Shown piece by piece: positions 752-57,314 of a DNA stretch of 57,409 nucleotides. The position numbers were made by a program, and so were the translations under genes. Every line of letters starts with the position of its first letter. The first letter of the stretch is position 1. The stretch comes from Hydrogenobacter hydrogenophilus. Its GTDB lineage: Bacteria > Aquificota > Aquificia > Aquificales > Aquificaceae. The notes under the pieces were generated by a model. It had not been told where the DNA came from. It made no database searches and worked only from the letters and a program-made list of their open reading frames with translations. The stretch spans positions 1 through 57,409 of the forward strand of contig NZ_OBEN01000010.1 in NCBI RefSeq assembly GCF_900215655.1. The letters run 5' to 3'.

Positions 752-810
752 GAAAAAGCCTAACGCTTGATTTTTTCCTGTCAAGTGTGGTAAGTTATTT
801 AACAAGTTTA

Positions 811-1095
811 AACTGAGGGTCAGAAAACTGACCCTTGTTATCTTGGCAGTTGAATAGGGTTTGTGTTTGTAAGATTATAAGGGTGGTATGGCTTTAATGT
901 CTTCATCAAAACATTTTGGCATTTTGATGTTTTGATGAAACACTTTTGGAACAGTTGAGTTTCAATAGTTGGAAATGGCACTTTTTAGCCCATTTTTGGG
1001 AACTGAAAATTTCCGAAAATTAACTTCATTTGAAGAGGGTATCCCTTTGACAAAAGGCTTGAAAGAGAATAAGATCAAACATGTAAGGATTTGGG
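811..1095 (+). promoter_or_regulatory. CRISPR leader 1 (duplicate of leader 2)
   Basis: About 240 bases from 811 to about 1055 match 48816-49055 with scattered substitutions and small indels. In order the leader holds a perfect hairpin (GGGTCAG, loop AAAA, CTGACCC; 817-834), a boxA-like block (832-859) and a large dyad with 12-base arms (903-914 and 927-938). A-rich sequence of no match then leads to the first repeat. Only a weak promoter is seen (TTGATT 767-772, TAAGTT 791-796, 18-base spacing), poorer than that of leader 2. Confidence 0.85.
817..859 (+). promoter_or_regulatory. Hairpin plus boxA-like antitermination element, leader 1
   Basis: The block 832-859 contains TTGTTATCTTGGCAG then TTGAATAGGG. 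It differs from the 16S rRNA leader block at 57142-57169 (minus strand) at only four of 28 positions, all transitions. A seven-base-pair hairpin lies directly upstream, as in rRNA leaders where boxB precedes boxA. The core CTTGGCA agrees with the boxA used, as I recall it, in Aquifex NusB/NusE work. Function as a NusB/NusE site is inferred. Confidence 0.6.
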
Positions 1096-1325
1096 GTTTT
1101 TAGCCCACCGTGTGGGATTGAGACAAAATATGTAGGCTTTTCTGCGGGGATTAGTTTTAGGTTTTTAGCCCACCGTGTGGGATTGAGACAAAATATGTAG
1201 GCTTTTCTGCGGGGATTAGTTTTAGGTTTTTAGCCCACCGTGTGGGATTGCGACTTCCTTACCTTAGCTAAGAATTTGTGCACATCTGTTGGTTTAGTTC
1301 CTAATGTACCGTGTGGAATCAAGAG
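1096..1325 (+). CRISPR. CRISPR array 1, short and degenerate
   Basis: Three 29-nt type A repeats (GTTTTTAGCCCACC... ending GATTGAGAC) lie at 1096-1124, 1161-1189 and 1226-1254; the third has one change near its end. Each can form CCCAC-CGT-GTGGG. The two 36-nt spacers (1125-1160, 1190-1225) are identical, so a repeat-spacer unit has been tandemly duplicated. After a 42-nt third spacer, a type B repeat like those of array 2, with four changes, closes the array at 1297-1325. The next gene begins 16 bases later. The array looks inactive or slowly decaying, but its leader elements are intact. Confidence 0.9.
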
Positions 1326-35324: not shown

Positions 35325-36417
35325 GTTTATAACGCCAGCCTTTATAGGGGGAGCGAACCCTCGTGAGAGTGCAGAGCTAAGACCCACAAGCTTTGTGGGA
35401 TTATTAAGGTGGTGGTACAGAGCTATTCTAAGACACCAGGTAAAAAGTTTTAAAGAGCTATATGAAAAAGAAAGCGAACTCTTCGGAAGTCAAGAAAAGG
35501 CAGGAAGGGTGTGGATAAGGATAAAAGGGAACGTCAAGGGCGAGCTTAAAAACTGTCAAACTTGGAGAGCTAACAATGAAAGAGACACAGACTGGGGAAA
35601 AGTTTACTTGGGCTACGGTAATATTTTGTACATCAATTTTGAGAGAGAAGAGAATCGCGAAAGCTATTCTCAGCTTTATAAGTTATGTGGTAATAAAAGA
35701 GGAAATTTTACAGTCAGAGCTTGGCTTGAGAAAAAGCAAAATGCAAACCTTCAAATCCTTGTGCCAAAGCACCTTAAAGAAAAAGTGGAAGCCTTGCTTT
35801 TTCTCTTTTCCCAAATAGGGAGTATAGGAAGTAGAAATCGCAGGGGTTGGGGCAGTCTTTATCTTAAGCCTCTATACGAGAGCGAGTATAAAAATTGGAA
35901 TAATTGGAATAAAGAAGAATTCAAGAGGGTTTTACAAATTTTAGGTGGTGTTCCGCCAAACATGGAAATCTATAAGCTTAATGAAAGTTATGCAAATCCG
36001 TTAGAAGCTTTAGAAGAAATTGGAAGGAAATATAGGACATTTAGAAGCAGAAGATCGCCCGATTATAGAAATGTGAAAGATTTTCTGCAAACTGGAACAT
36101 TTAAAGGTCATACCGTTGAAAGAGCATACTTTGGTCTTCCTTTGAGCTTCAAATTTAGAAGCTTAAACCAAAAGGAGGCTCAGCTCATTTGCAAAGCTGA
36201 TAGACTCTCAAGCCCAGTGAGGTTTAGGGTCGTAAGACTACCCGATGGTAAATTCACTTGCTTAGTGGTCCATTTTGAAACAAAAGAAGATGAAATGCCA
36301 GAAGACTTTAAGATTTTGGATAAGCAAAATAGAAAACAAATCAGTATAGCTAAACCATCAAGCAAGATATTTAAAGACTTTGTAAACACACATAAATTGC
36401 AAAGGGAGGTTCCTTGA
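35299..36417 (+). CDS. cmr1: Type III-B Cmr1 RAMP protein
   Basis: A 372-aa subunit that caps the crRNA 3' side of the Cmr complex. ITPAFIGGANP and RPTSFVGLLRWWYRA at the N-terminus are the Cmr1 signature; IGSIGSRNRRGWGSL is the second-domain glycine-rich loop. A TTG opens the frame at 35278, but the ATG at 35299 follows GGAGGTGG at a normal distance and gives the family's N-terminus. The stop TGA overlaps the cmr2 ATG. Confidence 0.92.
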   Translation: MEKLEFQIEFITPAFIGGANPRESAELRPTSFVGLLRWWYRAILRHQVKSFKELYEKESELFGSQEKAGRVWIRIKGNVKGELKNCQTWRANNERDTDWGKVYLGYGNILYINFEREENRESYSQLYKLCGNKRGNFTVRAWLEKKQNANLQILVPKHLKEKVEALLFLFSQIGSIGSRNRRGWGSLYLKPLYESEYKNWNNWNKEEFKRVLQILGGVPPNMEIYKLNESYANPLEALEEIGRKYRTFRSRRSPDYRNVKDFLQTGTFKGHTVERAYFGLPLSFKFRSLNQKEAQLICKADRLSSPVRFRVVRLPDGKFTCLVVHFETKEDEMPEDFKILDKQNRKQISIAKPSSKIFKDFVNTHKLQREVP

Positions 36418-38258
36418 TGCCTAAAAAACTTCTCATCTTTTCTTTCTCTCCCGTTCAGGGATTCATATCTGCATCCAGAAGACCTAGAGACCTCTTTACG
36501 GGAAGCTACATCATCTCTTACTTAACCGAGAGAGTAATAAAAGATTTGGGTCTCAAAGACAAGGTGATTTATCCAGTGATAAAAGAGGAAGGTTCACACC
36601 TTGCTAACTATCCCAACAAGTTCATAGCGGTCGTTGAAGAAAACATGTGCGATGAGGTAGAAGGCAAATTCCGTGACATTTGGAAAGGTATATGTGAAGA
36701 AGTTTGGAAGGGACTGGAGCTAAAACACGCAGAAGACCAGTTTTGGAAGCATGTGGATAACTACTTTAATCCTGTATGCTCTTGCTTAGAGTTTTTAGAT
36801 AAAGATAGCTGGGAGGACATTTTGGGAGTTTCTGAAAATTTAGAAGGAGAGCCTTACGCATTTACCTATGACCTTTTGGAAAGGCTTTTGGGAGCCAAAA
36901 AGTCTTGGAGACCTTATAGAGGAATTGTTGATGCTCACAATTTTGAAGGGAAATATCCAAACGGTTGCACTATGTGTGGCGAGCGCTTGCATCTTGCCAT
37001 TGATTGGGATAGGAATAATAAAAAGAAGTTCTTTAAAGAAAAAGATGCAAGGCACATAAGAGAGGGCGAAAAGCTCTGTGGTGTGTGTTTGGTAAAGAGG
37101 TTTGCTGTTAAGTATTACTTTAAAAATCACTTTGGAAAAGACCTGTGGCACTATCCTTCTACCGAGGAAGTGGCAGGTATAAACTTTAAGAAAAAGTTAA
37201 GGAAGTTTAGGGATGAAATAAAAGAAGACTATAAAAAGTTAGTTGGAAAACTTCAAGAAACGCCTTACATCATAAAGAACCCAACAATCAAAACTTTTGA
37301 AGACTTAGAAGAGCTTGATGCGGAGCTTTTTAGAAAAGATGGCTGGGAAGGACTGTTCAAAAGTCTAAAAGACATGTTTGACGAGCAAAAAGCGGAGGAA
37401 ATAAAGGGCTTACTTTACGAATTGGTGAAAAAACTCGAAAGAAAAGGTGTGGAACACACTAACTCGTATTACGCCATTATGATCTCCGATGGAGACGGCA
37501 TAGGTGAGTGGTTGGGAATAAAAAGTGATATAAGGCGAGGACCTCTAAGGGAGGAGTTTCACAGAGACTTTTCAAAGAGCCTTTCCGAATACGCAGAGGA
37601 AATAACGCAAGTAAAAAACCCTCCAAAGTTAACCATATACGCAGGTGGGGACGATACGGTAGCTTTTCTTCATCCCTTTGATGCGGTGGAGTATGCAAAG
37701 GTATGCAACGAAAAGTTTAGAGATAAGCTAAGTAGGTTTGCAAAAGAAGGCAGAAAACCATCCATCAGCGCAGGTATTCTCATAACCCATGCCAAAATGA
37801 ACTTACAAAAAGCGTTAGATGATGCAAGGTCTTTGGAAAAGCAAGCTAAAGGCGTAAAAGGTAAAGGTGCGGTTTGCATTGGCGTGCTAACAAGGTCAGG
37901 TAGTTTGACTTCCTTTGTTTCCAAGTGGGAAGACCTAGAACTTTACGAGGAGGTCTTAAGAGCCTTTATGTCCAAAAGGATAGGCTCCACTATTGTTTAC
38001 GAGCTGAGACCTCTGGCAGAAAAGTTTGGCGAAGAAAGCAGAGAGGATATTTTCTTTGCGTTGATTAAAAGGGTACTCAAAAGAAAGGTGGAGAAAGAAT
38101 ACAGAGATAATCTTTACTCGCTCATAAGGTGTTTCTACGAAAGGTCAAAGACCTATACGGAAGATAAGCCAAAGGAGTTTGCAATAAGAAACCTGCTCCA
38201 TCTTTTTTATGTGGCAAGGTTTGTGGGAACGCTGGAGGATAGAGATGAAAGCGTATAA
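36417..38258 (+). CDS. cmr2: Type III-B Cas10 (Cmr2) without HD domain
   Basis: A 613-aa large subunit. It begins directly with FSFSPVQGFISASRRPRDL, the start of the first cyclase-like region, so the N-terminal HD DNase domain of longer Cmr2 proteins is missing. Zinc ligands are C184/C187 and C221/C224. The palm keeps D358-G-D360 and the GGDD motif at 410-413, so synthesis of cyclic oligoadenylate upon target RNA binding is expected. No CARF/HEPN effector is in the window, so the receiver must be encoded elsewhere. The ATG at 36417, with GGGAGGT before it, overlaps the cmr1 stop. Confidence 0.93.
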   Translation: MPKKLLIFSFSPVQGFISASRRPRDLFTGSYIISYLTERVIKDLGLKDKVIYPVIKEEGSHLANYPNKFIAVVEENMCDEVEGKFRDIWKGICEEVWKGLELKHAEDQFWKHVDNYFNPVCSCLEFLDKDSWEDILGVSENLEGEPYAFTYDLLERLLGAKKSWRPYRGIVDAHNFEGKYPNGCTMCGERLHLAIDWDRNNKKKFFKEKDARHIREGEKLCGVCLVKRFAVKYYFKNHFGKDLWHYPSTEEVAGINFKKKLRKFRDEIKEDYKKLVGKLQETPYIIKNPTIKTFEDLEELDAELFRKDGWEGLFKSLKDMFDEQKAEEIKGLLYELVKKLERKGVEHTNSYYAIMISDGDGIGEWLGIKSDIRRGPLREEFHRDFSKSLSEYAEEITQVKNPPKLTIYAGGDDTVAFLHPFDAVEYAKVCNEKFRDKLSRFAKEGRKPSISAGILITHAKMNLQKALDDARSLEKQAKGVKGKGAVCIGVLTRSGSLTSFVSKWEDLELYEEVLRAFMSKRIGSTIVYELRPLAEKFGEESREDIFFALIKRVLKRKVEKEYRDNLYSLIRCFYERSKTYTEDKPKEFAIRNLLHLFYVARFVGTLEDRDESV

Positions 38259-39240: not shown

Positions 39241-39249
39241 AAACAGTTG

Positions 39250-39504
39250 ATGAGAACAGGCAACATGATTACCCTTCAATGCCAGTTAGAGCTTTCTAAA
39301 CAAGATAAAGAAATGCTCTTATCTCTTATGCGTAAATTCTCCTCTTGCATGAGGTATGCTTACAAGAGGCTATTGGAAGGAAAAGATAGAAAAGAGCTTA
39401 AGAAAGAACTGAAGGTTAGTTCCTATGCTTGGTGTAGGGACTATGTCTGCTCCAATACCGCCTGCTGGGTTTGGGAGCAGATTGAAAAGGCGGGATACAA
39501 GTAG
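39250..39504 (+). pseudogene. Truncated TnpB-like (IS200/IS605 OrfB) fragment
   Basis: An 84-codon frame whose first 55 residues (ITLQCQLELSKQDKEMLL, then LMRKFSSCMRYAYKRLLEG and RKELKKELK) resemble the N-terminus of Aquificae TnpB proteins, which normally run near 400 aa. The last 30 residues, with four Cys/Trp-rich segments, match nothing I know and probably follow an internal deletion. The RuvC domain is absent, so it cannot be an active nuclease. It lies between cmr3 and cmr4 just after TTGAT (39247-39251), the pentamer after which ISDra2-type elements insert. Expression in the cas transcript is possible. Confidence 0.6.
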
Positions 39505-39510
39505 CCCAGC

Positions 39511-39537
39511 CGAAAGTGTGAGTTTTACACACTTTCG
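39511..39537 (+). repeat. Palindrome after the TnpB fragment, possible IS right end
   Basis: CGAAAGTGTG, loop AGTTTTA, CACACTTTCG: a perfect ten-base-pair stem, six bases after the fragment's stop. IS200/IS605 ends carry such subterminal hairpins, which are also part of the guide (omega) RNA. In the mRNA it would fold 18 bases before the cmr4 ATG. It has no U-tract, so it is not a standard terminator. Confidence 0.6.
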
Positions 39538-39554
39538 CTAACCAGGTATGGAAG

Positions 39555-41640: not shown

Positions 41641-42612
41641 ATGGCTGGGCTCACTTTGACCATTATAACCTCAAAGGCAACAAGTCTTAACTACGGAGAG
41701 ACCGTAGGGAATGTTTCCATACTCAAAAAGCTATCTCTTGGAGACAGCTCTCAGATAACCTTTGTATCAGACAAGGCTCTAAAGTACGACATGAAAAGAA
41801 AAGGAAGGGATGAGAAAGGTTGGAAGTTGCTTGATGAAAAACTAAAGGAGTACATAGAGGGAAACATAAAGGACGATAAACTTGATGTTGACCAATTTGG
41901 GAAAGCACTTATTAAAGACTACCAGGAGTTTGACCTTTTTGGAGGGCTCTTTACAAACTTAAAAACAGAGAGGAAGGTAAAACTAAGCTACGGAGACAGC
42001 GTAAAGAGAGTATGTCCTGCGAAGGTCACTTACGCCTTTTCCATATCCAAGTTTTCAGGAGACATGAATTTCATAAACAACATAGATGCATACAATAGGT
42101 ACATCAAGCACATAGAGGACAAGCAGGACCAAGCGATAGCTAACAGCGAGGAACACACTTCTCACTACCTTTACACTCTCACCGTTGACTTAGACAGAGT
42201 AGGTGTATGGGAAAAGGAAGACGGCTCAAAAGAAGAGGTTCTTACTAAGGAAGAGAAGGCAAAGAGAGTCCAAGACCTTTTAGACATCATCATGACCTTA
42301 GACAGACAGATAAGGGGCAGGTGGGAAAATCTTTCGCCTGTTTTTGTGGTGGGAGGAGTGTTTACTGCCAAGCATCCCTTCTTTATGGACTGTGTGGATG
42401 CTAAGGAGGTAGAAGGCAGGCTATGGATAAATGTTCAAAGACTAAAGGAGTGCGTGGAGCTTGTGCCTGAGCAAGAAAAGGTTGTGTTAGGAGTGCTTTC
42501 GGGAACTTTCCTCAATGAGGAAGAGCTAAAAAGCGCATTCACCGTTAAAACCCTGAGGGAAACCTTTGATGAGCTAAAAAGACAGGTGAGAGAGTACTAT
42601 GGAGTGTCTTAA
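41641..42612 (+). CDS. cas7: Type I-B Cas7 backbone protein (Cst2/DevR-like)
   Basis: A 323-aa backbone subunit of the type I-B Cascade. LTLTIITSKATSLNYGETVGN at the N-terminus and the interrupted ferredoxin fold with KVTYAFSISKFSGDMNFINN fit the Cst2 (Tneap) group. Without a search the exact subgroup is tentative. AAGGAGGGTTAAAAG precedes the ATG. It overlaps cas5 by 14 bases. Confidence 0.87.
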   Translation: MAGLTLTIITSKATSLNYGETVGNVSILKKLSLGDSSQITFVSDKALKYDMKRKGRDEKGWKLLDEKLKEYIEGNIKDDKLDVDQFGKALIKDYQEFDLFGGLFTNLKTERKVKLSYGDSVKRVCPAKVTYAFSISKFSGDMNFINNIDAYNRYIKHIEDKQDQAIANSEEHTSHYLYTLTVDLDRVGVWEKEDGSKEEVLTKEEKAKRVQDLLDIIMTLDRQIRGRWENLSPVFVVGGVFTAKHPFFMDCVDAKEVEGRLWINVQRLKECVELVPEQEKVVLGVLSGTFLNEEELKSAFTVKTLRETFDELKRQVREYYGVS

Positions 42613-43234
42613 GTTTGAACTTTTCTCACCTTGCACTACCTTTAAGACCCCCTTCTCTCTGAAAGGTATAGAGACCTACCCTCTTCCTACTTACTCCACT
42701 ATCGTAGGTCTTCTTTATACCGCTCTTGGCGAAAAGTGGAAAGGAGAAGAATTTCTCATATCGGTACAGGGAACTTACGAAACGGTGTTTAGAGACTACA
42801 TAAGGCTGAGGAAGTACAACAGGAAGGATGAAGAGTTAGAAGTTCTGCCTTTGGAAGTGCCAAGGCTTTATAAAATGTACTGCGTAATCCACACAGTAGG
42901 ATCGTCCTTAGAGAAGTTCAAAAAAGCACTGGAAAGTCCCTCCCTTTACCTGTCCTTTGGAGGGGGTGAGTATCCTCTGTTGGTAAAGAACCCTCGCTTA
43001 CTTGGGGCAGAAGAAAAGTATTGGGAAGGAGAGCTACGCTATAATGCTTATGTTCCCAAAAGCAGGAAATCCTCTCTATACGGTGAGGGAATATACTTTC
43101 GCATACCTTCCTTTTACCAAGTTATAGACGGTGAGAGAGTGTGGAAGTGGGAGGAAGTCTATTACTTCCAAAAGGGAACCACCTTTGAGGGCAAACTGTG
43201 GGTTGATGAAGAGGGGGATGTACTATGGTTGTGA
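42599..43234 (+). CDS. cas5: Type I-B Cas5
   Basis: A 211-aa RAMP protein binding the 5' tag of the crRNA. The N-terminal FELFSPCTTFKTPFS and PLPTYSTIVGLLYTALGE are the conserved Cas5 region; the C-terminal part is short, as in Cas5t. No sign of catalytic Cas5d-type residues, consistent with Cas6 being present. Overlaps cas7 by 14 and cas8 by 10 bases. Confidence 0.9.
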   Translation: MECLKFELFSPCTTFKTPFSLKGIETYPLPTYSTIVGLLYTALGEKWKGEEFLISVQGTYETVFRDYIRLRKYNRKDEELEVLPLEVPRLYKMYCVIHTVGSSLEKFKKALESPSLYLSFGGGEYPLLVKNPRLLGAEEKYWEGELRYNAYVPKSRKSSLYGEGIYFRIPSFYQVIDGERVWKWEEVYYFQKGTTFEGKLWVDEEGDVLWL

Positions 43235-44694
43235 GGTTTTACGCAGATAACTGGCTCACCGCTTCCGCTGGGGTTGGGCTCTTAAAGGCTCTTGAACACA
43301 AAGGCATAGAGTGGGAACCCTTCTTGAAGGGAAATGTTATAGAGCTACCCGAAGACCTGTTTAAAGAGATAGGAAAAATCTATGCGGATTACCTTTTGTC
43401 TGATTTCAACCAAGATACACTAAAGAACCTTCTTGAAAAGGAAAGGAAGAAAGAGTTCAATCTTTACAACAGTATAGCTTATCCCAAAATAGGAGATTTT
43501 TATTCCAATAGCCCCATTGTAAATCCCTCAAAGACTGGAAGAGCCAACGCAGAGTTTAAAAAGTTTTACGAAAAGGAGAAGAACATAGAGCTTTTATACT
43601 CTAAGGCAGTAGATGTGGTTAGAAACTTTATTAAGGAACAGTTTGACGAGCTTTTGGGACATGAAAGGAGCCAAAAGGTGTGCTTCTTCTGTAGAGAAAG
43701 AAAGGCTTATATAAAGGACAAGAAGGTAAAGGTCTTTGAAGCAACAAACTTTACCCCTCTTGCTGCAAGTCCAAACACGGTGGAAAACTTCTTCTGGAAC
43801 GGTAAAAGCAATATGTACATGTGTCCCGAGTGTGAGATATTCATGTACTTTTCCGCCTTTGCCTTTCAAAGAACGCTCAGAGGAACTTATATGTTTGTTT
43901 ACACACCAGACCTTAGGGAGACCTTTTCCTTAAACGATATTTTAGCAAAGGAAGGCTCTGTAGGCATAATAAGCAAAACGATTTTGGAGGTAGCAAAGAC
44001 AGTCCAGCAGAGGAAGTCCGAATGGGTCCTTAGGAACATATACATAGTGGAAATTGAAAAGGTAGGAGACGCGCAAGCTAACATACACACTCTTAGCCTT
44101 TCTCCCAGACTTGCAAGTGCTCTAAAGGATTTAATAAAAGATTATCCCAAGTATATGGAAGGTCTTTTTGACCTGTTTATAGAGTATGTCTATTCGGGTA
44201 GGAGTCTCTACGAGTTTCTGTGGAGCGTAATGTCAGGATTTTTCTTTAAAAATCGTTATAAAAACCTGCAGGGAAGGAAAAGTCTTTTGGTAAAGAAAGG
44301 GACGAGCTTTAAGGACTACCTTCCTTACGGACTTCTTTACTTTGTAAAATTTCAGGAGGTGCTAAACATGGAGGACAAAGATAAGGTAAACAAACAGGTT
44401 AACTGGGCTTATGCGGAAGGTAAGAGCCTTTGGGAGGCTTACACACTCGGTATGGGAGAAGAAAGAGCCAAGAAGAAAGTGGAAGTTCTCTCTTACAGGA
44501 TACTTGATGCCATCAGGAGAAAGGACATAGATGCCTTTCAACAGAACATCATAAGAGCTTACCTTGAGGTGGAGAAGGAGATACCCTATGTATTTGTAGA
44601 AGCTCTCAGGGACAGGAGCTTTAACAGAGTAGCTTACGCCTTCTTGATAGGCCTTAACAGTAAAGGAAAACAGGAGGAACAAGAAACTATTTAA
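43225..44694 (+). CDS. cas8: Type I-B large subunit Cas8 (Cst1-like)
   Basis: A 489-aa large subunit that recognises the PAM and recruits Cas3. A four-cysteine zinc finger is visible: CFFC near residue 150 and CPEC near 200. The N-terminal YADNWLTASAGVGLLKALEH and the finger are typical of the Cst1/Cas8a1 group. Sequence conservation in Cas8 is low, so the call rests on the finger, size and position between cas5 and cas3. Confidence 0.85.
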   Translation: MVVRFYADNWLTASAGVGLLKALEHKGIEWEPFLKGNVIELPEDLFKEIGKIYADYLLSDFNQDTLKNLLEKERKKEFNLYNSIAYPKIGDFYSNSPIVNPSKTGRANAEFKKFYEKEKNIELLYSKAVDVVRNFIKEQFDELLGHERSQKVCFFCRERKAYIKDKKVKVFEATNFTPLAASPNTVENFFWNGKSNMYMCPECEIFMYFSAFAFQRTLRGTYMFVYTPDLRETFSLNDILAKEGSVGIISKTILEVAKTVQQRKSEWVLRNIYIVEIEKVGDAQANIHTLSLSPRLASALKDLIKDYPKYMEGLFDLFIEYVYSGRSLYEFLWSVMSGFFFKNRYKNLQGRKSLLVKKGTSFKDYLPYGLLYFVKFQEVLNMEDKDKVNKQVNWAYAEGKSLWEAYTLGMGEERAKKKVEVLSYRILDAIRRKDIDAFQQNIIRAYLEVEKEIPYVFVEALRDRSFNRVAYAFLIGLNSKGKQEEQETI

Positions 44695-44703
44695 AGAACA
44701 AAC

Positions 44704-46848
44704 ATGAGCCTTGATGAGCTTTTAAGTAAGCTTTGGGCAAAGGGGGACGGAACCAGTATAAGGGAGCATACGGACAGGCTTATTGATAACCTCAAAATGA
44801 TCAAAGAGACCTTTGGAGACCTGATTGAAGGGACATTAAAAGAACAAGCAGGGCATTTTTGGAAATGCCTTGAGCTTGCCTGTGAGTATCACGATTATGG
44901 GAAGATACACCGCTACTTTCAGAAAAAAGTGGGAAATCCAGACTTTAAAAATTTCAGGGCAGGGTTTGGTGAGGTAAGACACAATCTTCTTTCTCCTGCC
45001 TTTCTACCAGAAGAACTCTCCGAACCTTGGAAAACCTTAGTAGCATTGGCTATAGTGCACCATCACGATTATGAGCCTTCTGATGAAAATGTTGAGAAGG
45101 TTGAGAAAGTTCTAAAAGAGGAGTTTAAGAAAAGCCTGTCTTTTATGCACAGAAAGGTTCTCAAGAACAGAGAGGAAGAGATCATTGAAAAGCTTGAAAG
45201 TGGTGAGTATACAAATATAAAGACCTTCTATACGCTTCTAAAGGGTTTTCTTTTGCGCATTGACCATGCCAGTAGCTCCAAGTTTGCACCGCATGTAGAA
45301 AGTGGCAGGCTCAAAGAAAACGAGAAGAAAGTTGAAAGCTATCTGAGAAACAACAAAAACGCAAACCTCAATGAACTTCAAAACTTTGTACTTTCAAATA
45401 GAAAGGATAACTTACTCATAGTTGCTTCAACAGGTGCAGGTAAAACGGAGGCAGGTTTTATCTTTTTAGAACACAAGGGGTTTTTTACTATACCTATAAG
45501 AACATCAGCCAACGCAATATACCAAAGAGCCAAGCAAGTATTTGACGAAGAAAGCGTAGGACTTTTGCACTCTACCGCTCATCTTTACCTATTGGGAAAT
45601 GCGGAGGAAGACAGAAACTTCTCAGACGATGCTGTAGTAAAAGACATGTTCCTTACAAAAAACTTTGGAAAACCCCTGATAGTTTCAACACCTGACCAAC
45701 TGTTTCCCTTTATTCTCAGACCTAAAGGCTTTGAAAAGTACTACTCACTGTTTTCCTACTCCCGAGTAGCGTTAGATGAAGTTCAGCTGTTTGAACCCCA
45801 CACGCTTGGCTTCATAGTTAAAGCAATAGAAAAGTTAAGTGAGCTTGATGGAAGGCTTATGGTAATGACCGCTACGCTACCTTCTTACTTGGAAAAAGAC
45901 CTTGAGAAGCTCGGTTTTAAAATGGGAACTTTTTTGACCACCCAAGAGAGGCACAACATAAAAGTCCTTAAAAGCTCCATACTGAGCCAAGAAGGTTTTA
46001 ACCTAATAAGGAAGCTATCCCAAAGGGGTAAAGTTTTGGTGGTGGTTAATACAGTAGGTAGAGCCATTGAGCTTAAAAAGGCACTTGCTTTGGGACATCT
46101 TCTTCACGCTCGCTTTATCTACAAAGACAGAAAGGAAAAGGAAAAAGAAGTAGAGGAGTTTTTCAGAGATTCCAACTGTGGAGTTTGGATAACTACGCAG
46201 ATAGCGGAGGTCTCTTTAGACCTTGATGCGGACTTTCTTATAACGGAGCTATCTACCATTGACTCTCTCTTCCAGAGGATGGGTAGAGTAAACAGGCTTG
46301 GCAGAAAAGAGATAAGCCAGCCCAATGTCTTTGTATTTACCGAAGATTGTTCGGGTATAAGCAGAGTGTATAGAAAAAGCATACACGAATTTACCAAAGA
46401 AGTTTTAAAAGAAGGTCCTTTGAGCGAAGAAGAGAAACAAACTTTCATAAAAAAGGTTTATGAAGAGGTTGCCAAAAGGGATAAAGAATACATGAAAAAT
46501 TACGAAGATGCCAAAAGATACATAGACTCCCTTTGGACCGTAAAAGAGACCTTCAACAAGGAAAAGGCACAGCACATGTTCAGAGATATACTTACCTACA
46601 CGGTGATACCTGAGCGCTTCAGGGACCAAGTAGAAAGGTTGATAAAGGAGTACAAACAAGAAAAGGATTATCTGAAAAGGCTACAGATCTTTTCGAGCAT
46701 AACCGAGTACATGTTTAGCGTACCCGCCTATGTAAAGGTACCTCTCAAAAAGGTAGAAGGGCTCAAAGATGTTTTTTGGATAGAGGGCGAATACTCCGCA
46801 GAGTTGGGATTTGAATTTAAGGAGAATGGTAATGCCAATATCCTTTGA
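44704..46848 (+). CDS. cas3: Cas3 HD nuclease-helicase
   Basis: A 714-aa fused Cas3 that unwinds and degrades target DNA. The HD domain has H63-D64 in EYHDYGKI and HHHDYEP downstream. The SF2 helicase has the Walker A STGAGKT at 242-248, motif II DEVQ at 358-361 (DEVQ in place of DEXH), motif III TATLP, and motif VI FQRMGRVNRLG. All motifs appear intact, so the I-B system can interfere. It overlaps the start region of cas4. Confidence 0.93.
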   Translation: MSLDELLSKLWAKGDGTSIREHTDRLIDNLKMIKETFGDLIEGTLKEQAGHFWKCLELACEYHDYGKIHRYFQKKVGNPDFKNFRAGFGEVRHNLLSPAFLPEELSEPWKTLVALAIVHHHDYEPSDENVEKVEKVLKEEFKKSLSFMHRKVLKNREEEIIEKLESGEYTNIKTFYTLLKGFLLRIDHASSSKFAPHVESGRLKENEKKVESYLRNNKNANLNELQNFVLSNRKDNLLIVASTGAGKTEAGFIFLEHKGFFTIPIRTSANAIYQRAKQVFDEESVGLLHSTAHLYLLGNAEEDRNFSDDAVVKDMFLTKNFGKPLIVSTPDQLFPFILRPKGFEKYYSLFSYSRVALDEVQLFEPHTLGFIVKAIEKLSELDGRLMVMTATLPSYLEKDLEKLGFKMGTFLTTQERHNIKVLKSSILSQEGFNLIRKLSQRGKVLVVVNTVGRAIELKKALALGHLLHARFIYKDRKEKEKEVEEFFRDSNCGVWITTQIAEVSLDLDADFLITELSTIDSLFQRMGRVNRLGRKEISQPNVFVFTEDCSGISRVYRKSIHEFTKEVLKEGPLSEEEKQTFIKKVYEEVAKRDKEYMKNYEDAKRYIDSLWTVKETFNKEKAQHMFRDILTYTVIPERFRDQVERLIKEYKQEKDYLKRLQIFSSITEYMFSVPAYVKVPLKKVEGLKDVFWIEGEYSAELGFEFKENGNANIL

Positions 46849-47350
46849 GGAGATTAAGGAGCTGAAATTCAAAGGTACGCAGGTAGCTTATGCAGTAGTA
46901 TGTCCAAGAAAGCTGTGGCTGTTCTCTAAGGGCATTTCTCTCGAGAGCACCTCTGACAGGGTAGCCCTTGGTAAGTTCCTTGACGAAACATCTTTCAAGG
47001 GTACAAAAGGCTATAGCGATGAGAGGGTAAGCATAGACTTCCTTACTGTAGAAGATGGACTTGTTGTACACGAGGTGAAGCTGTCTAACTCTTTGGAAGA
47101 AGCTCACGAACTTCAGATAAAGTATTACATATACTATCTTAGGTCGCACGGTGCAAACGCAAATTATGGCTTGCTACACTATCCAAGACATAGAAAAATT
47201 AAAAAGGTTCAGCTCACCAGTGAAGATGAGAAAAATATGGATCAAATCCTTTGCTACATAGATTCAATAATCAAAAGCCCAAAGCCTCCACCAGTTATAG
47301 AAAAACCTTACTGTAAAGAGTGTGCCTATTACCATCTTTGCTATGGGTAA
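46832..47350 (+). CDS. cas4: Cas4 exonuclease
   Basis: A 172-aa RecB-like nuclease that trims prespacers and sets PAM and orientation during adaptation. VCPRKLWLF holds the first cluster cysteine, YCKECAYYHLC the remaining three; EVKLSN with a following QIKYY motif forms the nuclease site. The ATG at 46832 is chosen because AAGGAG ends seven bases before; 46826 is an alternative. It overlaps cas1 by eight bases. Confidence 0.92.
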   Translation: MPISFEEIKELKFKGTQVAYAVVCPRKLWLFSKGISLESTSDRVALGKFLDETSFKGTKGYSDERVSIDFLTVEDGLVVHEVKLSNSLEEAHELQIKYYIYYLRSHGANANYGLLHYPRHRKIKKVQLTSEDEKNMDQILCYIDSIIKSPKPPPVIEKPYCKECAYYHLCYG

Positions 47351-48290
47351 GCCCTACTTTTTAATAAGGGACGGTAGGCTTTCCAGAAAGGAAAACACCG
47401 TACTGTTTGAGAGCGAAAGTCTGAGTAAGACAATACCAATAGAAGACATAGACGAGCTGTTTGTACTGTCGGAGGTTTCACTTACATCTAAGTTCCTAAA
47501 GCTCTTATCGGAAAAAGGAGTGGTTATGCATCTTTTTAACAGGTTTGGCTTCTATGTGGGTAGCTTCTATCCAAGAGAGACTGACCCTTCTGGCTACCTG
47601 CTAATAAAACAAGCGGAGCATTATTTGGAACAAGAGAAAAGGCTATATTTAGCAAAGGCTTTTGTTTCTGGAGCTATAGAGAACCTGTCTTTCGTGTACA
47701 ACTTAGACGGTGATGAGTATCTCAAGAGGCTTTCTGAAAAGAAGAGCGTGGAGGAGGTTATGAGCGTTGAAGGAGAGTTTAGAAAAAAGTGTTATGAGAA
47801 GCTTGAGGAAATAACAGGCTTTGAGTTTGGGACAAGAACAAAAAGACCACCAAAGAACCATCTTAACGCTCTCGTATCTTTTGGGAATTCTCTCGTTTAT
47901 GCAAAAGTGTTGGGAGAAATATACTACACCCAACTGAACCCTGCAATAAGCTACCTGCACGAGCCTTCAACAAAAAGATTCTCCCTCTCCCTTGACCTTT
48001 CGGAGGTTTTTAAACCTATACTTTCTGACAGCTTGATCATAGAGCTTGCAGGTAAAACCATAACCGAAAAACACTTTGTGAATAACTCAGGACTCGTATA
48101 CCTAAACGAAGAAGGAAAGAGAATATTCTTAGAAGAATTCAATAAACTTATTGAAAAAACACTAAAGCATAAAAAGCTCAAGCGTAATGTATCCATTAGG
48201 AGCTTAATCAGGATAGAAGCTTATAAGCTCATAAAGCACTTCGTAGGAGACGAGATGTACACACCTCTTATCTACAGGAACCTGTTATGA
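47343..48290 (+). CDS. cas1: Cas1 integrase
   Basis: A 315-aa Cas1, catalytic subunit of the spacer integrase. NALVSFGNSLVYAKV and LHEPSTKRFSLSLDLSEVFKP bring the catalytic Glu-His-Asp environment. The ATG at 47343 follows the cas4 reading frame's end with an eight-base overlap; an earlier frame opening at 47322 would add residues outside the family. It is the only Cas1 in the window and must serve both arrays. Confidence 0.95.
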   Translation: MGKPYFLIRDGRLSRKENTVLFESESLSKTIPIEDIDELFVLSEVSLTSKFLKLLSEKGVVMHLFNRFGFYVGSFYPRETDPSGYLLIKQAEHYLEQEKRLYLAKAFVSGAIENLSFVYNLDGDEYLKRLSEKKSVEEVMSVEGEFRKKCYEKLEEITGFEFGTRTKRPPKNHLNALVSFGNSLVYAKVLGEIYYTQLNPAISYLHEPSTKRFSLSLDLSEVFKPILSDSLIIELAGKTITEKHFVNNSGLVYLNEEGKRIFLEEFNKLIEKTLKHKKLKRNVSIRSLIRIEAYKLIKHFVGDEMYTPLIYRNLL

Positions 48291-48568
48291 AAGTGATCTT
48301 GGTTTATGACATATCTATTGAGGAACCCAGAGATCAGAACAGACTAAATAAGGTTAGGCAGGTGGTTAGAAAGTACATAAACCATGTACAGAAGTCTGTA
48401 TTTGAGGGGGAACTAAGCCCTTCAAAGTTGGAAAGGTTAAAAAACGAGGTGCTAAGGGTTGTTGACAAAAGGAGGGATTCTGTAATTATATATATCCTTG
48501 AAGACGGAGCCTTTTATGAGCGTCAGATCCTAACAGACACACCTGACCCTACGGATAATATCATCTAA
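48287..48568 (+). CDS. cas2: Cas2
   Basis: A 93-aa Cas2 that bridges two Cas1 dimers. VILVYDISIEE carries the conserved strand-1 Asp, and KYINHVQKSVFEGELSP is the typical middle. It overlaps cas1 by four bases and ends one base before the stop of the convergent RHH gene; no terminator is evident between them. Confidence 0.95.
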   Translation: MKVILVYDISIEEPRDQNRLNKVRQVVRKYINHVQKSVFEGELSPSKLERLKNEVLRVVDKRRDSVIIYILEDGAFYERQILTDTPDPTDNII

Positions 48569-48569
48569 T

Positions 48570-48772: not shown

Positions 48773-48800
48773 TTGCCAGAAGGAGAAAGTGTGATATAAT
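48773..48800 (+). promoter_or_regulatory. Promoter of CRISPR array 2
   Basis: TTGCCA at 48773-48778 and TATAAT at 48795-48800 with 16-base spacing. Transcription would start about ten bases before the leader hairpin. Confidence 0.6.
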
Positions 48801-48815
48801 AATAAGCGTTTGGGA

Positions 48816-49103
48816 AACTGAGGGTCAGAAAACTGACCCTTGTTATCTTGGCAGTTGAATAGGGTTTGTGTTTGTAAGATAAGAGGGGGGTGATATAGCT
48901 TTAATACCTTCATCAAAACATTTTGGCATTTTGATGTTTTGATGAGGTACTTTTGGAACTGTTGAGTTTCAATAGTTAGAAATGGTAATTTTTCAGCCCA
49001 TTTTTAGGAACTGAAGATTTCCGAAAATTAACTTCATTTGAAAAGGGTACCCCTTTTAGCAAAGTGTTGATGTACAATGTTTTTCTTGAATATCCCTTTT
49101 GGG
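48816..49103 (+). promoter_or_regulatory. CRISPR leader 2
   Basis: The first 240 bases match leader 1. Elements are the hairpin GGGTCAG/CTGACCC (48822-48839), the boxA-like block, and the dyad TCATCAAAACAT (48910-48921) with ATGTTTTGATGA (48934-48945). The last 45 bases before the first repeat differ from leader 1. The dyad could be a hairpin in the RNA or a binding site guiding integration. Confidence 0.88.
48822..48864 (+). promoter_or_regulatory. Hairpin plus boxA-like antitermination element, leader 2
   Basis: Identical to the element of leader 1 over this block. The core at 48837-48864 shares 24 of 28 bases with the 16S rRNA leader element. It lies some 20 bases after the promoter and 240 before the first repeat, suitable for protecting a long untranslated transcript from Rho. 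Confidence 0.6.
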
Positions 49104-49882
49104 GTTTCTAATGTACCGTGTGGAATTGAAAGCCCACCAGCTCATTGTTATACACTGTGAGAATGTATAGTTTCTAATGTACCGTGTGGAATTGAAAGAA
49201 GGTCGTGTGGGCAAATTCCAAGAGTATCTGGCTGAGTTTCTAATGTACCGTGTGGAATTGAAAGTCTTGCGAGGGTTGTTGCCCTCATTCTTTACAAGTA
49301 TGTTTCTAATGTACCGTGTGGAATTGAAAGTCATGCTTTTGATCTCTATGATATAAATGTTGTCTTTGTTTCTAATGTACCGTGTGGAATTGAAAGCAGA
49401 ACCTGCAATCCCTTGCAAGTCCTCAAGCAATCTGTTTCTAATGTACCGTGTGGAATTGAAAGCGGGATCAAAGCTAAGGAAGTCAGTTCCATAATCATGT
49501 TTCTAATGTACCGTGTGGAATTGAAAGAGGAAATATCTTTTCATGGCTTTGGACGAACTCGTAGGTTTCTAATGTACCGTGTGGAATTGAAAGTTCTAAA
49601 GCTTGCTCTTTTTCTCTTTGTTTTTGTTCGTTTCTAATGTACCGTGTGGAATTGAAAGTCCTTTGCAAGAAGGTACCCTTTCTCAACAAACTTTTCAGTT
49701 TCTAATGTACCGTGTGGAATTGAAAGGACATCTCTCAAACCTACTGGGTAAGCACTATAGGAGTTTCTAATGTACCGTGTGGAATTGAAAGCTGGAACAC
49801 CATGTTAATTTTCTTAAGCAATTCTCGGGTTTTTAGCCCACTGGGTGGGATTGGGACTTATCTATCGTGTAGAATTTGAAAG
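49104..49882 (+). CRISPR. CRISPR array 2, eleven type B repeats plus a terminal type A repeat
   Basis: Eleven identical 29-nt repeats (GTTTCTAATGTACC... ending GGAATTGAAAG) start at 49104, 49170, 49236, 49302, 49368, 49434, 49499, 49565, 49630, 49698 and 49763. Spacers are 36-39 nt, all different. After spacer 11 comes a type A repeat with three changes (49829-49857), directly followed without a spacer by the degenerate 3' half of a type B repeat (about 49861-49882). The 3' ATTGAAAG tag fits type I-B/III-B handling by Cas6. The uniform repeats near the leader indicate recent activity. Confidence 0.97.
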
Positions 49883-51472: not shown

Positions 51473-51593
51473 CCCCCGGGACGACCTACTTTCCCGTGCC
51501 GTTCGCCCGGCACAGTATCATCGGCGCTGGAGGGCTTAACTGCCGGGTTCGGAATGGAAACCGGGTGTTTCCCCTCCGCTATGGTCCCGAGGG
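51473..51593 (-). rRNA. rrf: 5S ribosomal RNA
   Basis: About 121 nt. The ends CCCTCGGGAC and GTCCCGGGGG pair perfectly over ten positions (one G-U). The interior has the conserved CCGAACCCGG-type loop B/C sequence (TTCCGAACCCGGCAGTTAAG). It is the last gene of the rRNA operon; no strong intrinsic terminator is seen after it. Confidence 0.95.
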
Positions 51594-51600
51594 AAACTCT

Positions 51601-51638
51601 GACAACTCAATAGGTTTTCCTTCCTGTGGGTGTGCAAG
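51601..51638 (-). other. 3' strand of the 23S processing stem
   Basis: This strand pairs with 55271-55309 over about 37 bases with few mismatches, enclosing the 23S gene as an RNase III substrate. Confidence 0.75.
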
Positions 51639-51748
51639 CCGAACGGGCTATTAGTACAGCTTGGCTTCACCCCTTACGGAGCTTCCACCTGCTGCCTATC
51701 AACGTGGTAGTCTTCCACGGCCCTTCAGGGAGTCCTTATCTTGAGGTG

Positions 51749-51781
<33 letters not shown>

Positions 51782-51949
51782 CGTAGCAGGATGGCTACCC
51801 GGCGCTACCTCTGGAGAGATAACCGGTACACCAGAGCCTGCCCCGTCCCGGTCCTCTCGTACTAAGGACGGACCCTCTCAAGACTCCTGCGCCCGCGGCG
51901 GATAGGGACCGAACTGTCTCGCGACGTTCTGAACCCAGCTCGCGTCCCC

Positions 51950-51983
<34 letters not shown>

Positions 51984-52445
51984 GCTTCAGCCCCAGGATG
52001 GGGGGAGCCGACATCGAGGTACCAAACCTCCCCGTCGATGTGGGCTCTCGGGGGAGATTAGCCTGTTATCCCCGGAGTAGCTTTTATCCGCTGATCACCG
52101 GCCCTTCCCCAAGGAACCGGTGGGTCACTAGGCCCGGCTTTCGCCTCTGCTCGGCCTGTCGGCCTCACAGTCAGGCACCCTTCTGCCCTTGTACTCTACG
52201 GCGGATTTCCGACCCGCCTGAGGGTACCTTTGGACGCCTCCGTTACCTTTTAGGAGGCAGCCGCCCCAGCTAAACTGCCCATCTGGCACGGTCCCCGCGG
52301 AGGTTAACTCCGCTGGGTTAGGGTCTCAGCCTGTCCAGGGTGGTATCTCACCGGCGCCTCCATCCCTCCCGGAGGAGGGACTTCACAGGCTCCCACCTAT
52401 CCTGCGCAGGACAGGCTAAGACTCAGTACCAGACTACAGTGAAGC

Positions 52446-52476
<31 letters not shown>

Positions 52477-52596
52477 GCCGGCATCTTGACCGGCATTACA
52501 ATTTCGCCGGGACTCTCCTCGAGACAGCGCGGCACTCGTTGGGCCATTCATGCAGGTCGGAACTTCACCCTTTCTTGCCTTTCGGCAAGGGGTAGA

Positions 52597-53061
52597 CTAT
52601 ACCTTCTCACCACCAAGGACCTGTAGGAGGTACTCCTTGGTATGTTTACGCTTACCAGAAGGGTTCATAGAGTACGCTATCTCTATTATTTCCCTCAGGT
52701 ATTTGGGTGAAAGGTGCAGGTTTGCTCTTACCATTTGACAAACCCTTTTAAACTTTTCGTAATCTTCTTTTTTTGAGCCTTGTAAGGGATATGCTTCAAA
52801 GTGAGGTATTACCTTCCTTACTATGTCCTTTACATCCCTCACTTCAAACTTGTAGGTATTATCACTTTTTGAAAATCTTATTCCTCCACACTGGAAGAAT
52901 TCCCTAAGCTTCTTTATAAGCTCCAGGTCCCTTCTATTTAAAGACACAGAAAAGGAAGGTCTCGTTTCTATACCTACTTTTAGCCTATCCCTTAGGCTGA
53001 AGCTTACCGAAAAGCACCCTTCACCCTCAACGAGTCCCGTAACATACCAAGGATCAAGCAT
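52597..53061 (-). CDS. Single-motif LAGLIDADG homing endonuclease
   Basis: A 154-aa intron-encoded endonuclease, homodimeric by its single motif TGLVEGEGCFSVSF (8-21), in which the second Glu is the metal-binding acid. Size is near that of I-CreI (163 aa), which also targets a 23S gene. It should cut intronless 23S alleles at the insertion site. GGAGGT lies nine bases before the ATG, in the loop of a six-base-pair hairpin. Codon use is like the chromosome and the frame is intact, so it is probably functional. Confidence 0.9.
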   Translation of the reverse strand: MLDPWYVTGLVEGEGCFSVSFSLRDRLKVGIETRPSFSVSLNRRDLELIKKLREFFQCGGIRFSKSDNTYKFEVRDVKDIVRKVIPHFEAYPLQGSKKEDYEKFKRVCQMVRANLHLSPKYLREIIEIAYSMNPSGKRKHTKEYLLQVLGGEKV

Positions 53062-53063
53062 AT

Positions 53064-53081
53064 GGCTATACCTCCATAGCC
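53064..53081 (-). promoter_or_regulatory. Hairpin whose loop is the endonuclease ribosome-binding site
   Basis: GGCTAT-GGAGGT-ATAGCC: the six loop bases are exactly the Shine-Dalgarno sequence of the endonuclease gene, and the ATG follows two bases after the stem. It may also be an intron structural helix. Confidence 0.6.
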
Positions 53082-53271
53082 CTTTCTGCGCTTCCCTACG
53101 GAAGCGGGTGGTGGCCGGCGTCTTGCAGGCTAAAAAGCCTGCCTCCCCTTTCGGGTCAGTCGTTACGGGGCTCTGTTTCCCTCACGAGAAACAGGCTTCC
53201 CTCGGGATTACCCCACACCCTTTATGGGTAGGAGGGCTCCCCCGATATGAGCCGGACACGGGCAAGTCCGT

Positions 53272-53322
<51 letters not shown>

Positions 53323-54715
53323 GCGTTTACCCGGGCTTCGGTTCGGAGCTTGCACTCCTCCCCTTAACCTACGGGCACTGGCCAGGCTTCAGACCACATA
53401 CATCCCCTTTCGGGTTTGCGTAGTCCTGTGTTTTTGATAAACAGTCGGCACCGCCCGGTCTCTGCGACCCGCAAGAGCTTACACCGTAAAGGTTTCACTC
53501 CCACGGGCCCCCCTTCTTCCGAAGGTACGGGGGCAATTTGCCGAGTTCCTTGAGGAGAGTTCCCCCGACGCCTTAGGCTACTAACCCAGCCCACCTGTGT
53601 CGGTTTGCGGTACGGGCAGCGATGCTTCAACGCCAGCGCCGTTGTTTCTTGGCAGTGTGGCGTCAGGAGAGTTACCCCATCGGCTCTCGGAGTATGGGGT
53701 GACGGATTTGCCTGCCACCCCCTCCTACTACCTTAGACCACCATTCCATAGGTGGCTCTCCCTAGCCTCCTGCGTCACGACTCTGGCTCCACACCGCTGG
53801 CGCGGGAATGTTGACCCGCTTCCCATCGGCTACGCCTTTCGGCCTCACCTTAGGGTCCCGGCTAACTGGCGGCTGATTTACATTGCCGCCAAAACCTGGG
53901 GCTTCCGGCGGACAGGTTTCTCACCTGTCTTCGCTGCTACTCATGCCAGGATTCTCACTTCCCTGCAGTCCATCCCACCTCACGGTGAGACTTCAACCCA
54001 CAGGGAACGCTCCCCTACCGCTCGCCTTTAAGCGAGCCCGCAGCTTCGGTACCGGGCTTGAGCCCCGCTAAATTTTCGGCGCACGGCCGCTCGGCCGGTC
54101 AGCTGTTACGCACTGTTTAAAGGATGGCTGCCTCTAAGCCAACCTCCCAGCTGTCTTAGCAGCCGCACATCCTTCCCCACTTAGCCCGGATTTTGGGACC
54201 TTAGCTGGCGGTCTGGGCTGTTTCCCTCTTGTCCTCCGGAGCTTATCCCCCGGGGACTGACTGCCACCCTACCTATCTCGGCATTCGGAGTTTGGCAGGG
54301 TTCGGTACCCCTTTCGAGGCCCTAGCCCAACCAGTGGCTCTACCTCCGAGAAGGAACGGGTGACGCTAGGCGTCGACCTATTTCGGGGAGAACGAGCTAT
54401 CACGGAACGCGATTGGCTTTTCACCGCTACCCACACCTCATCGGACGGTTTTGCAGCACCGACCCGTTCGGGCCTCCAGACGGCATTACCCGTCCTTCAC
54501 CCTGGGCATGGGTAGATCGTTCCGCTTCGCGTCTGCCCCCAGCGACTAAAGCGCCCTATTCGGACTCGCTTTCGCTACGGCTTCGCCTTACGGCTTAACC
54601 TCGCCACTGAGGACAACTCCCTGGCTCATTCTGCAAAAGGCACGCAGTCGGGCCACAAGGACCCTTCCACTGGCTTGTGGATCCGGGGTTTCAGGTTCTA
54701 TTTCACTCCCCTTCC

Positions 54716-54746
<31 letters not shown>

Positions 54747-55270
54747 ATGCGCTATCGGTCTGCCCGTAGTACTTAGCCTTGGAGGGAGGTCCCCCCTGAT
54801 TCCCACGACCTTCCACGGGGGCCGTGGTACTTGGGATCGCATCCCCAGGAGACTTCTCACTTTTAGCCTACGGGGCTTTCACCCTCTGTGGCGGAGCGTT
54901 CCAGCTCACTTCGGCTAAGTGGAAGTTTTGTAACTCCCTGAGAGGCTGGCAGACCTCTCCGGATGCGTCCCGCTACCCCGTGCGAGCTAAGGCTGCCACC
55001 ATGGCACCCGCACGGTTTGGGCTGATCCCCTTTCGCTCGCCGCTACTCGGGGAGTCTCGTTTGATTTCCTTTCCTGGGACTACTAGAAGGTTTTACTTCG
55101 TCCCGTATTGGCTCCGCTTGCGCGGATGACAGGGCTCAACGCCCTGCCGGGTTTCCCCATTCGGGCATCCGGGCCTCACAGGCTTTTTGCGCCTCCACCC
55201 GGCTTATCGCAGCTTAACACGCCCTTCGTCCCCTCGGGCAGCCGAGGCATCCACCCCGGACCCTTACTAA

Positions 55271-55318
55271 CTTGCACACCCACAAGGAAGGAAAACCTAT
55301 TCAGTTGCCAAGATTACA
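55271..55318 (-). promoter_or_regulatory. boxA-like element and 5' strand of the 23S processing stem
   Basis: On the minus strand, between tRNA-Ala and 23S, TAATCTTGGCAACTGAATAG repeats the core of the 16S leader element. A second boxA before 23S is the norm in bacterial rRNA operons. The downstream part pairs with 51601-51638. Confidence 0.6.
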
Positions 55319-55390
55319 TGGAGATGGTGGGACTTGAACCCACGACCTCCTGCTTGCAAAGCAGGCGCTCTCCCGCTGAGCTACATCCCC
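55319..55390 (-). tRNA. tRNA-Ala (TGC)
   Basis: A 72-nt cloverleaf with acceptor GGGGATG/CATCTCC, including the G3-U70 pair that identifies alanine tRNAs; anticodon loop TTTGCAA (anticodon TGC); T loop TTCAAGT. CCA is not encoded. It lies in the 16S-23S spacer, after tRNA-Ile. Confidence 0.97.
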
Positions 55391-55409
55391 TTGGACCTGC
55401 CCCAGATAA

Positions 55410-55483
55410 TGGGCCTCGGTGGACTTGAACCACCGACCTTGCCCTTATCAGGGGCACGCTCTGACCAACTGAGCTAGAGGCCC
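55410..55483 (-). tRNA. tRNA-Ile (GAT)
   Basis: A 74-nt cloverleaf with acceptor GGGCCTC/GAGGCCC, anticodon stem CCCCT-GATAA region with anticodon GAT, T arm GGTGG-TTCAAGT-CCACC and discriminator A. CCA is not encoded. First gene in the 16S-23S spacer. Confidence 0.97.
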
Positions 55484-55491
55484 AAAGGAAA

Positions 55492-55518
55492 GGCAGCTCA
55501 ATAAGGAGGAAGGACCCT
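55492..55518 (-). other. 3' strand of the 16S processing stem
   Basis: Complementary to 57130-57156 over 27 bases with two mismatches, enclosing 16S rRNA for RNase III cleavage. Confidence 0.75.
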
Positions 55519-55564
55519 AAAGAGTTTGATTGGCTAAACAGCCTGAAAACTTTTTACTCCGTAT

Positions 55565-57116
<1,552 letters not shown>

Positions 57117-57129
57117 AACCCCAAGTAAA

Positions 57130-57184
57130 AGGGTCCTTCCTCCTTATTCAGTTGCCAAGATGACAAGGGGCTTTTTACACCCCT
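57130..57184 (-). promoter_or_regulatory. rRNA leader: hairpin, boxA-like element and processing stem
   Basis: On the minus strand a short hairpin (AGGGG/CCCCT, 57166-57184) leads into the 28-base block 57142-57169 containing TTGTCATCTTGGCAACTG and then AATAAGG, the sequence shared with both CRISPR leaders. Its downstream part is also the 5' strand of the 16S processing stem. Confidence 0.65.
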
Positions 57185-57206
57185 CAATTATCACTGCAGA
57201 ATTTTA

Positions 57207-57235
57207 ATTATATACCCAATTTTTTGCTTTGTCAA
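57207..57235 (-). promoter_or_regulatory. rRNA promoter P2
   Basis: On the minus strand TTGACA (57230-57235) and TATAAT (57207-57212) with 17-base spacing: a consensus sigma-A promoter. Confidence 0.8.
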
Positions 57236-57306: not shown

Positions 57307-57314
57307 GTGGAAAC

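Follow-up and report, generated by a model that had tools for sequence, protein, structure and literature searches.

A block of sequence shared by the rRNA operon and the CRISPR arrays of Aquificota, a phylum of bacteria from hot springs, is, with high probability, a cis-acting RNA signal for processive antitermination of the rrn type. From its distribution, nearly every CRISPR array in this phylum appears to begin with such an rRNA-type signal. The window referred to below is the whole stretch of DNA analysed, 57,409 nt in length, and corresponds to contig C10 of a genome of 1.6 Mb. The module is promoter-proximal and consists of a short hairpin, a boxA-like (A)TCTTGGCA and ACTGAATA(R)GG. The earlier note had remarked that the block is longer than boxA itself, and this is accounted for by the boxC-like ACTGAATA that abuts boxA.

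Copies of the block were located at four places in the window. The first is in CRISPR leader 1 (832-859, plus strand, CCCTTGTTATCTTGGCAGTTGAATAGGG) and the second, identical to it, in CRISPR leader 2 (48837-48864, plus strand). The third lies in the 16S leader (57169-57142, minus strand, CCCTTGTCATCTTGGCAACTGAATAAGG), and the core is repeated before 23S (55318-55296, minus strand, GTAATCTTGGCAACTGAATAGGT), where it abuts tRNA-Ala (55319-55390). The CRISPR and 16S-leader blocks agree at 24 of 28 positions and differ by transitions at the other four, as claimed in the earlier note, whose placing of the copies was correct. Its further claims, that the core recurs before 23S and that short hairpins precede all window copies but the last, were also borne out (815-836, 48820-48841 and, on the minus strand, 57185-57165), and all three hairpins give stable folds. 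When the window was searched for TCTTGGCANYTGAATA with up to two mismatches, exactly four sites were obtained, two before CRISPR arrays, one before 16S and one before 23S, against 0.38 expected, and none of 100 shuffles reached four.

CRISPR leader 1 has a weak promoter-like sequence upstream, TTGATT-18-TAAGTT (767..796, plus strand, read from the sequence). The boxB-like hairpin GAGGGTCAG-AAAA-CTGACCCTT (815..836, plus strand), which covaries, folds with -15.5 kcal/mol. The boxA-like ATCTTGGCA (840..848, plus strand) is identical in the rRNA leaders of this genome, and in the boxC-like GTTGAATAGGG (849..859, plus strand) the TGAATA is nearly invariant among CRISPR and rRNA leaders of the phylum. 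Array 1 has three repeats of GTTTTTAGCCCACCGTGTGGGATTGAGAC (1096..1254, plus strand). At leader 2, all on the plus strand, the promoter TTGCCA-16-TATAAT agrees with the consensus at 11 of 12 positions (48773..48800), the boxB-like hairpin (48820..48841) equals 815-836 in sequence, and boxA-like ATCTTGGCA (48845..48853) and boxC-like GTTGAATAGGG (48854..48864) precede array 2, with repeats GTTTCTAATGTACCGTGTGGAATTGAAAG (49104..49857). The latter adjoins a type I-B cas operon, cas7-cas5-cas8b1-cas3-cas4-cas1-cas2 (41641..48569, plus strand), with Cmr2 and Cmr4 of a type III-B module further upstream (36414-40391; both by NCBIfam). In the rRNA operon, 16S-tRNA-Ile-tRNA-Ala-23S-5S (51473..57116, minus strand; Rfam, ARAGORN), the 16S-leader copy comes after a P2-like promoter TTGACA-17-TATAAT (57207..57235, minus strand, likewise read from the letters) and a boxB-like hairpin GAGGGGT-N7-GCCCCTT (57165..57185, minus strand). 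It is made up of boxA-like ATCTTGGCA (57161-57153) and boxC-like ACTGAATAAGG (57152-57142), together 57142..57161 on the minus strand. A boxA and boxC-like block is present again before 23S, right after tRNA-Ala (55298..55314, minus strand). The module is thus found both between the rRNA promoter and 16S and before 23S (minus strand 57161-57142 and 55314-55298), and the same placement was seen in further genomes.

The two arrays of the window are hybrids. Array 1 carries at its end a degenerate repeat of the family of array 2 (1297-1325; region 1096-1325), and the last repeat of array 2 (49829-49857) is from the family of array 1. Mixed-repeat arrays are seen in relatives too (L106, L130). Within array 1, the same spacer occurs twice in succession (1125-1225). 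The CRISPR leaders also contain a long dyad CATCAAAACATTTTGGCATTTTGATGTTTTGATG and a conserved leader-proximal AACTGAARATTTCCGAAAATTAACTTCATTT (900-950 and 48905-48945). The ends of the window, 1-112 and 57298-57409, are mutual reverse complements located upstream of rRNA promoters, and a related copy of this sequence lies upstream of a C8 array (L018).

CRISPR arrays were called by simple repeat detection throughout. In the window's own genome, the exact pattern occurs at five sites, namely before the C3 array, the two window arrays, 16S and 23S. One-mismatch sites (TCTTGACAGTTGAATA and similar) were found before arrays on C1, C2, C4 (two), C6 and C11, so that apart from the two rRNA copies all exact or one-mismatch sites of this genome are in CRISPR leaders. 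A repeat search gave the converse: all nine arrays of two repeat families have the module about 240-260 nt upstream. In the two C8 arrays neither the repeat, GTTTATTAAGTACCTATAAGGAGTTGAAAC, nor the leader is related to those of the nine; this leader, about 55 nt long, contains TTGACA-N17-TATATT, a hairpin AGCC-ATAT-GGCT and then ACTTGACAACTGAATA. The presence of the module on this unrelated leader indicates that it is not merely a by-product of duplicated leaders. The module thus precedes 11 of 11 CRISPR arrays found in this genome, a count that took in arrays of three known repeat families only, with boxA on the transcribed strand, downstream of the promoter and ahead of the first repeat.

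A covariance model was built from five sequences of this genome and applied to relatives. Matches were obtained in 57 of 64 genomes of the family, often 5-17 in each. Loci of the relatives were picked by score or by pattern and then classified by what follows; among the 158 modules so selected, 88 precede arrays of at least two repeats and 9 stand before one repeat only or a degenerate one; 42 belong to rRNA operons (16S or 23S), 12 lie at contig ends and 7 elsewhere. Three of these seven resemble decayed leaders (L083, L115 and probably L204). In G036, of which 390.5 kb were scanned without preselection, the module was found at five of five arrays and in the 16S and 23S leaders, and no copy was detected elsewhere in that sequence. 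The block is present in the CRISPR leaders of every Aquificaceae genus examined closely that has classifiable arrays, and the relatives carry it on several repeat families and leader types. The earlier note had named absence of the block from such leaders in related genomes as a refuting outcome, and the opposite was observed; its proposal that Aquificaceae share an antitermination module is supported by this distribution. The same block precedes arrays, 16S or 23S in other families of Aquificota as well (G089, G091, G093, G094, G101, G111, G113). Hydrogenothermaceae-like genomes (f2) have two blocks per CRISPR leader, about 550 and about 40 nt before the first repeat, and no hairpin was seen at the f2 CRISPR copies examined. 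In these f2 loci (L176, L182, L188, L193, L198, L203) the proximal block comes after a TATAAT of its own, and G093 has about 40 model matches. In several g6 genomes a second module follows an earlier promoter, in an upstream rRNA leader; its variants include CTTTAGAGTTGAATA (second-module or variant leaders at L076, L089, L112, L134, L153 and L154), and the similar CTTTAGAGCTGAATA was seen in sequences of G027 that look like leaders.

When 84,980 genomes were scanned for exact occurrences of the 19-mer TCTTGGCAACTGAATARGG, 15 contigs were returned, of which 11 bear the labels Aquificaceae, Hydrogenobacter or Aquificota. Three of the four remaining matches look like chance. The fourth, in 'Acidobacteria' J001 (L253), is an Aquificaceae-type leader with the block, probably on a misbinned contig. 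The eight exact matches of an 18-mer in viral contigs are near the number expected by chance. One-mismatch matches of the G029 type at L158, L167 and L173 (G031, G032 and G029) were also taken as chance; they share one conserved, coding-like context with no promoter, hairpin, array or rRNA.

Protein genes follow two modules, L057 and L122. An extra module in the window's own genome, CTTTATAACTGAATA with a hairpin, scored 43.5 bits (C8:74341-74388, minus strand) and stands ahead of a small ORF resembling sigma-70 region 2. The strong hairpin-boxA module with CTTTATAACTGAATA on G000:C8 (L137:8822-9389, minus strand) precedes an ORF of 159 aa of this sigma-like kind, which is a possible protein-coding target of the Nus complex. 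A search for viral relatives of the sigma-like ORF that follows L057 found none. At L122 (G053:C137:10124, plus strand) the module stands ahead of an ORF of 265 aa with a structured 5′ UTR, for which no Pfam or PHROG match was obtained.

The position of the module was compared among loci. A TATAAT-like element lies 45-75 nt before TGAATA in most homologous loci, and a strong -10 match was present in 96% of loci, compared to 48% of shuffles and 19% of downstream windows. The distance from the block to the first repeat, about 245 nt for array 1 of the window, ranges from 22 to about 560 nt. With a near-constant distance to the promoter and a variable one to the repeat, the module is tied to the 5′ end of the transcript and not to the integration site. 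Among 87 distinct hairpin sequences, 96.8% of cells are paired and all seven pairs have double changes (82 observed against 26 in shuffles; 0 of 500 shuffles reach the observed values), from an alignment fitted to the structure, which favours covariation. The signal is lost when the partner strand is slid. In an independent fold check, native hairpins gave -11.3 kcal/mol and chimeras of 5′ halves with the 3′ halves of other loci a mean of -7.1 kcal/mol. Pairing is thus kept while the sequence changes, indicating that shape outweighs sequence. The f2 CRISPR leaders examined, where boxA has no stem-loop upstream, show that the hairpin is not an obligatory part.

The block varies by lineage, and CRISPR and rRNA copies vary together. 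In g2 and g3, GGCTCCTTGGCA or GGCTCCTTGACA is found in nearly all copies of both kinds, and G051 has ATTGGCA in CRISPR and rRNA copies alike. TCAACTTGGCA occurs in the CRISPR and rRNA copies of G052 and G053 and in the CRISPR copies of G054, TGACATCTTGG in most CRISPR and most rRNA copies of g6, and ACTTCAATAGCTGAATA in both kinds in G029. The match of CRISPR copies to the rRNA copies of their own lineage gave a trace of 169.5 against a permuted mean of 143.0, with 4 of 362,880 permutations at least as good, in a test that ignores relatedness among lineages and in which one of 15 g1 entries is a 23S copy (window, minus strand 55298) entered as CRISPR. The g11 CRISPR copies fit their own 16S copy more poorly. 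This concerted change suggests that one trans-acting factor probably reads both RNAs.

Other explanations for the block were weighed against these results. The block could be one strand of the RNase III processing stem, with the CRISPR leaders copied from the rRNA leader. The earlier note had placed the rRNA copy partly within the 16S processing stem, and the 3′ half of the block together with the sequence after it does pair with a segment of the 16S trailer (55492..55518, minus strand; duplex prediction against shuffled trailer); in f2 a complementary copy of the 23S-leader block lies before 5S. The RNase III alternative raised in that note suits the rRNA copy and not the CRISPR copies, for which a complementary partner is lacking. 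Across 88 CRISPR leaders, complementarity of the block to the next 400 nt does not exceed that to shuffles (mean z 0.09), yet ACTGAATA is conserved in them, and the 5′ half of the block, CTTGGCA, pairs more poorly even in rRNA. An RNase III stem fails to explain copies that lack a pairing partner, and this reading is very unlikely. Retention of ACTGAATA in such leaders suggests instead recognition in single-stranded form, with NusA as the most likely reader. Slightly less probable still is a DNA leader element for spacer integration (Cas1-Cas2 or IHF-like anchoring), to which the rRNA likeness would be secondary. The block does sit in CRISPR leaders, where integration signals are expected, but it keeps its distance to the -10 element (mostly 45-75 nt) and not to the first repeat, lies in every case on the transcribed strand, follows a hairpin that covaries and recurs in rRNA leaders, where it changes along with the CRISPR copies. 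A leader-anchoring element was rejected since it would be expected to stand close to the first repeat at a constant distance, which the block does not.

Alternatively, the hairpin could stop or stall the polymerase as an intrinsic terminator or a pause signal, and the block would serve as an anti-terminator or as a regulatory site that ties CRISPR and rRNA output to growth. The leader 2 hairpin plus TTATCTT did score as terminator-like in a scan, but most lineages have no U-tract after the hairpin (e.g. CCGGCTCCTTGG, TTGACATCTTGG), on which ground an intrinsic terminator was rejected, and the f2 CRISPR leaders keep the block without any hairpin. Such an attenuator is therefore highly improbable. 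A lineage-specific RNA-binding protein other than NusB/S10, acting on stability or processing of rRNA and pre-crRNA, would also suit the co-variation, from which no more follows than that both RNAs are probably read by a single trans factor. The order and place of the elements (promoter, hairpin, boxA, boxC, and again before 23S) match the described rrn signal and the gene for NusB is present; we consider this alternative unlikely, though a shade less so than the others.

Antitermination is accordingly the preferred reading. Hairpin, boxA and linear element, in this order after the last rRNA promoter and again before 23S, correspond to the rrn signal boxB-boxA-boxC. The Aquificota block appears similar to the boxC RNA of M. 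tuberculosis, GAACUCAAUAG, and to the boxA region of Firmicutes, CTTTGAAAACTGAATA, and the RNA in the crystals of A. aeolicus NusB-NusE (3R2C) appears to resemble GGCUCCUUGGCA. Genes for NusB and Rho are present in the genome, the closest solved NusB entries being 3r2c, 3r2d, 2jr0 and 4eya, and 3R2C is a NusB-NusE-boxA complex (PMC5773889). In the rrn layout boxB-boxA-boxC, NusB/NusE (S10) bind boxA and NusA binds boxC (PMC6614801, PMC10250234); the NusA-bound boxC of M. tuberculosis doubles as a strand of the RNase III stem (PMC6614801). In the window's genome, the linear element after boxA pairs with the 16S trailer in the rRNA copy, and the CRISPR copies lack a partner. In the mechanism proposed here, the polymerase would transcribe, soon after leaving the promoter, the boxB-like hairpin, of which only the shape is conserved, boxA CTTGGCA and the adjacent boxC-like ACTGAATA. 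BoxA would recruit NusB-S10 and the boxC-like part NusA, and the polymerase so modified would resist Rho across the untranslated leader and array. A counter-point is that arrays of only one to three repeats, where protection from Rho seems less needed, keep the module.

A fuller proposition, to which we give an even chance, is that the CRISPR arrays of Aquificota are read by the complete rRNA-type antitermination complex, which would use a NusA-type boxC site in addition to boxA. Unrelated leaders would have independently kept or gained the module, so that array transcription would share the Nus-factor control of rRNA and co-evolve with it. If true, the CRISPR copies, being without a stem, would allow protein binding by single-stranded boxC to be told apart from its part in the stem, an open question in rRNA. 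The leaders are in effect natural experiments on the rrn parts: boxA and boxC without processing stem, with a hairpin in Aquificaceae and none in f2. What boxB and boxC do in rRNA has been called puzzling or unclear (PMC10250234), a matter that the CRISPR leaders open to direct test. The module doubles as a marker of CRISPR leaders, strand and array decay in Aquificota genomes. CRISPR antitermination would also be extended to a deep-branching phylum in which it may be nearly universal across repeat families. There, boxA would act as it reportedly does before other arrays, where it is thought to shield the long untranslated CRISPR transcript from Rho.

A boxA upstream of CRISPR arrays, promoting their transcription, is known (Stringer et al. 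2020, as presented in PMC7862264), and the Aquificota arrays are alike in having it. They add an adjacent boxC-like segment and, in Aquificaceae, an upstream hairpin, giving the rrn-type order; their module spans a deep-branching phylum and unrelated leader types, and co-varies with the rRNA copy. The literature searched contained no report for Aquificota, which Stringer et al. 2020 may possibly cover, and a genome-wide study of ncRNAs in Aquificales mentions neither leaders nor boxA (PMC4227106). What appears to be new here is the complete rrn-type module, phylum-wide, independent of the leader and co-evolving with rRNA. Outside rRNA, boxA is also known before suhB and a ParE-like toxin gene, where it represses or regulates protein genes (PMC5725501). 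Nearly all non-rRNA copies in Aquificota are in CRISPR leaders, although one or both of L057 and L122 may be comparable. With the rrn signal of E. coli and M. tuberculosis (PMC10250234, PMC6614801) the module shares the hairpin, boxA and the following linear element, and its site just after P2 in the 16S leader and again before 23S. The Enterobacteriaceae boxC lies 18-19 nt from boxA (PMC10250234); the Aquificota element abuts boxA, and the name boxC is therefore used by analogy. Unlike the rrn signal of E. coli and M. tuberculosis, the Aquificota module also fronts CRISPR arrays, and does so there without a processing stem.
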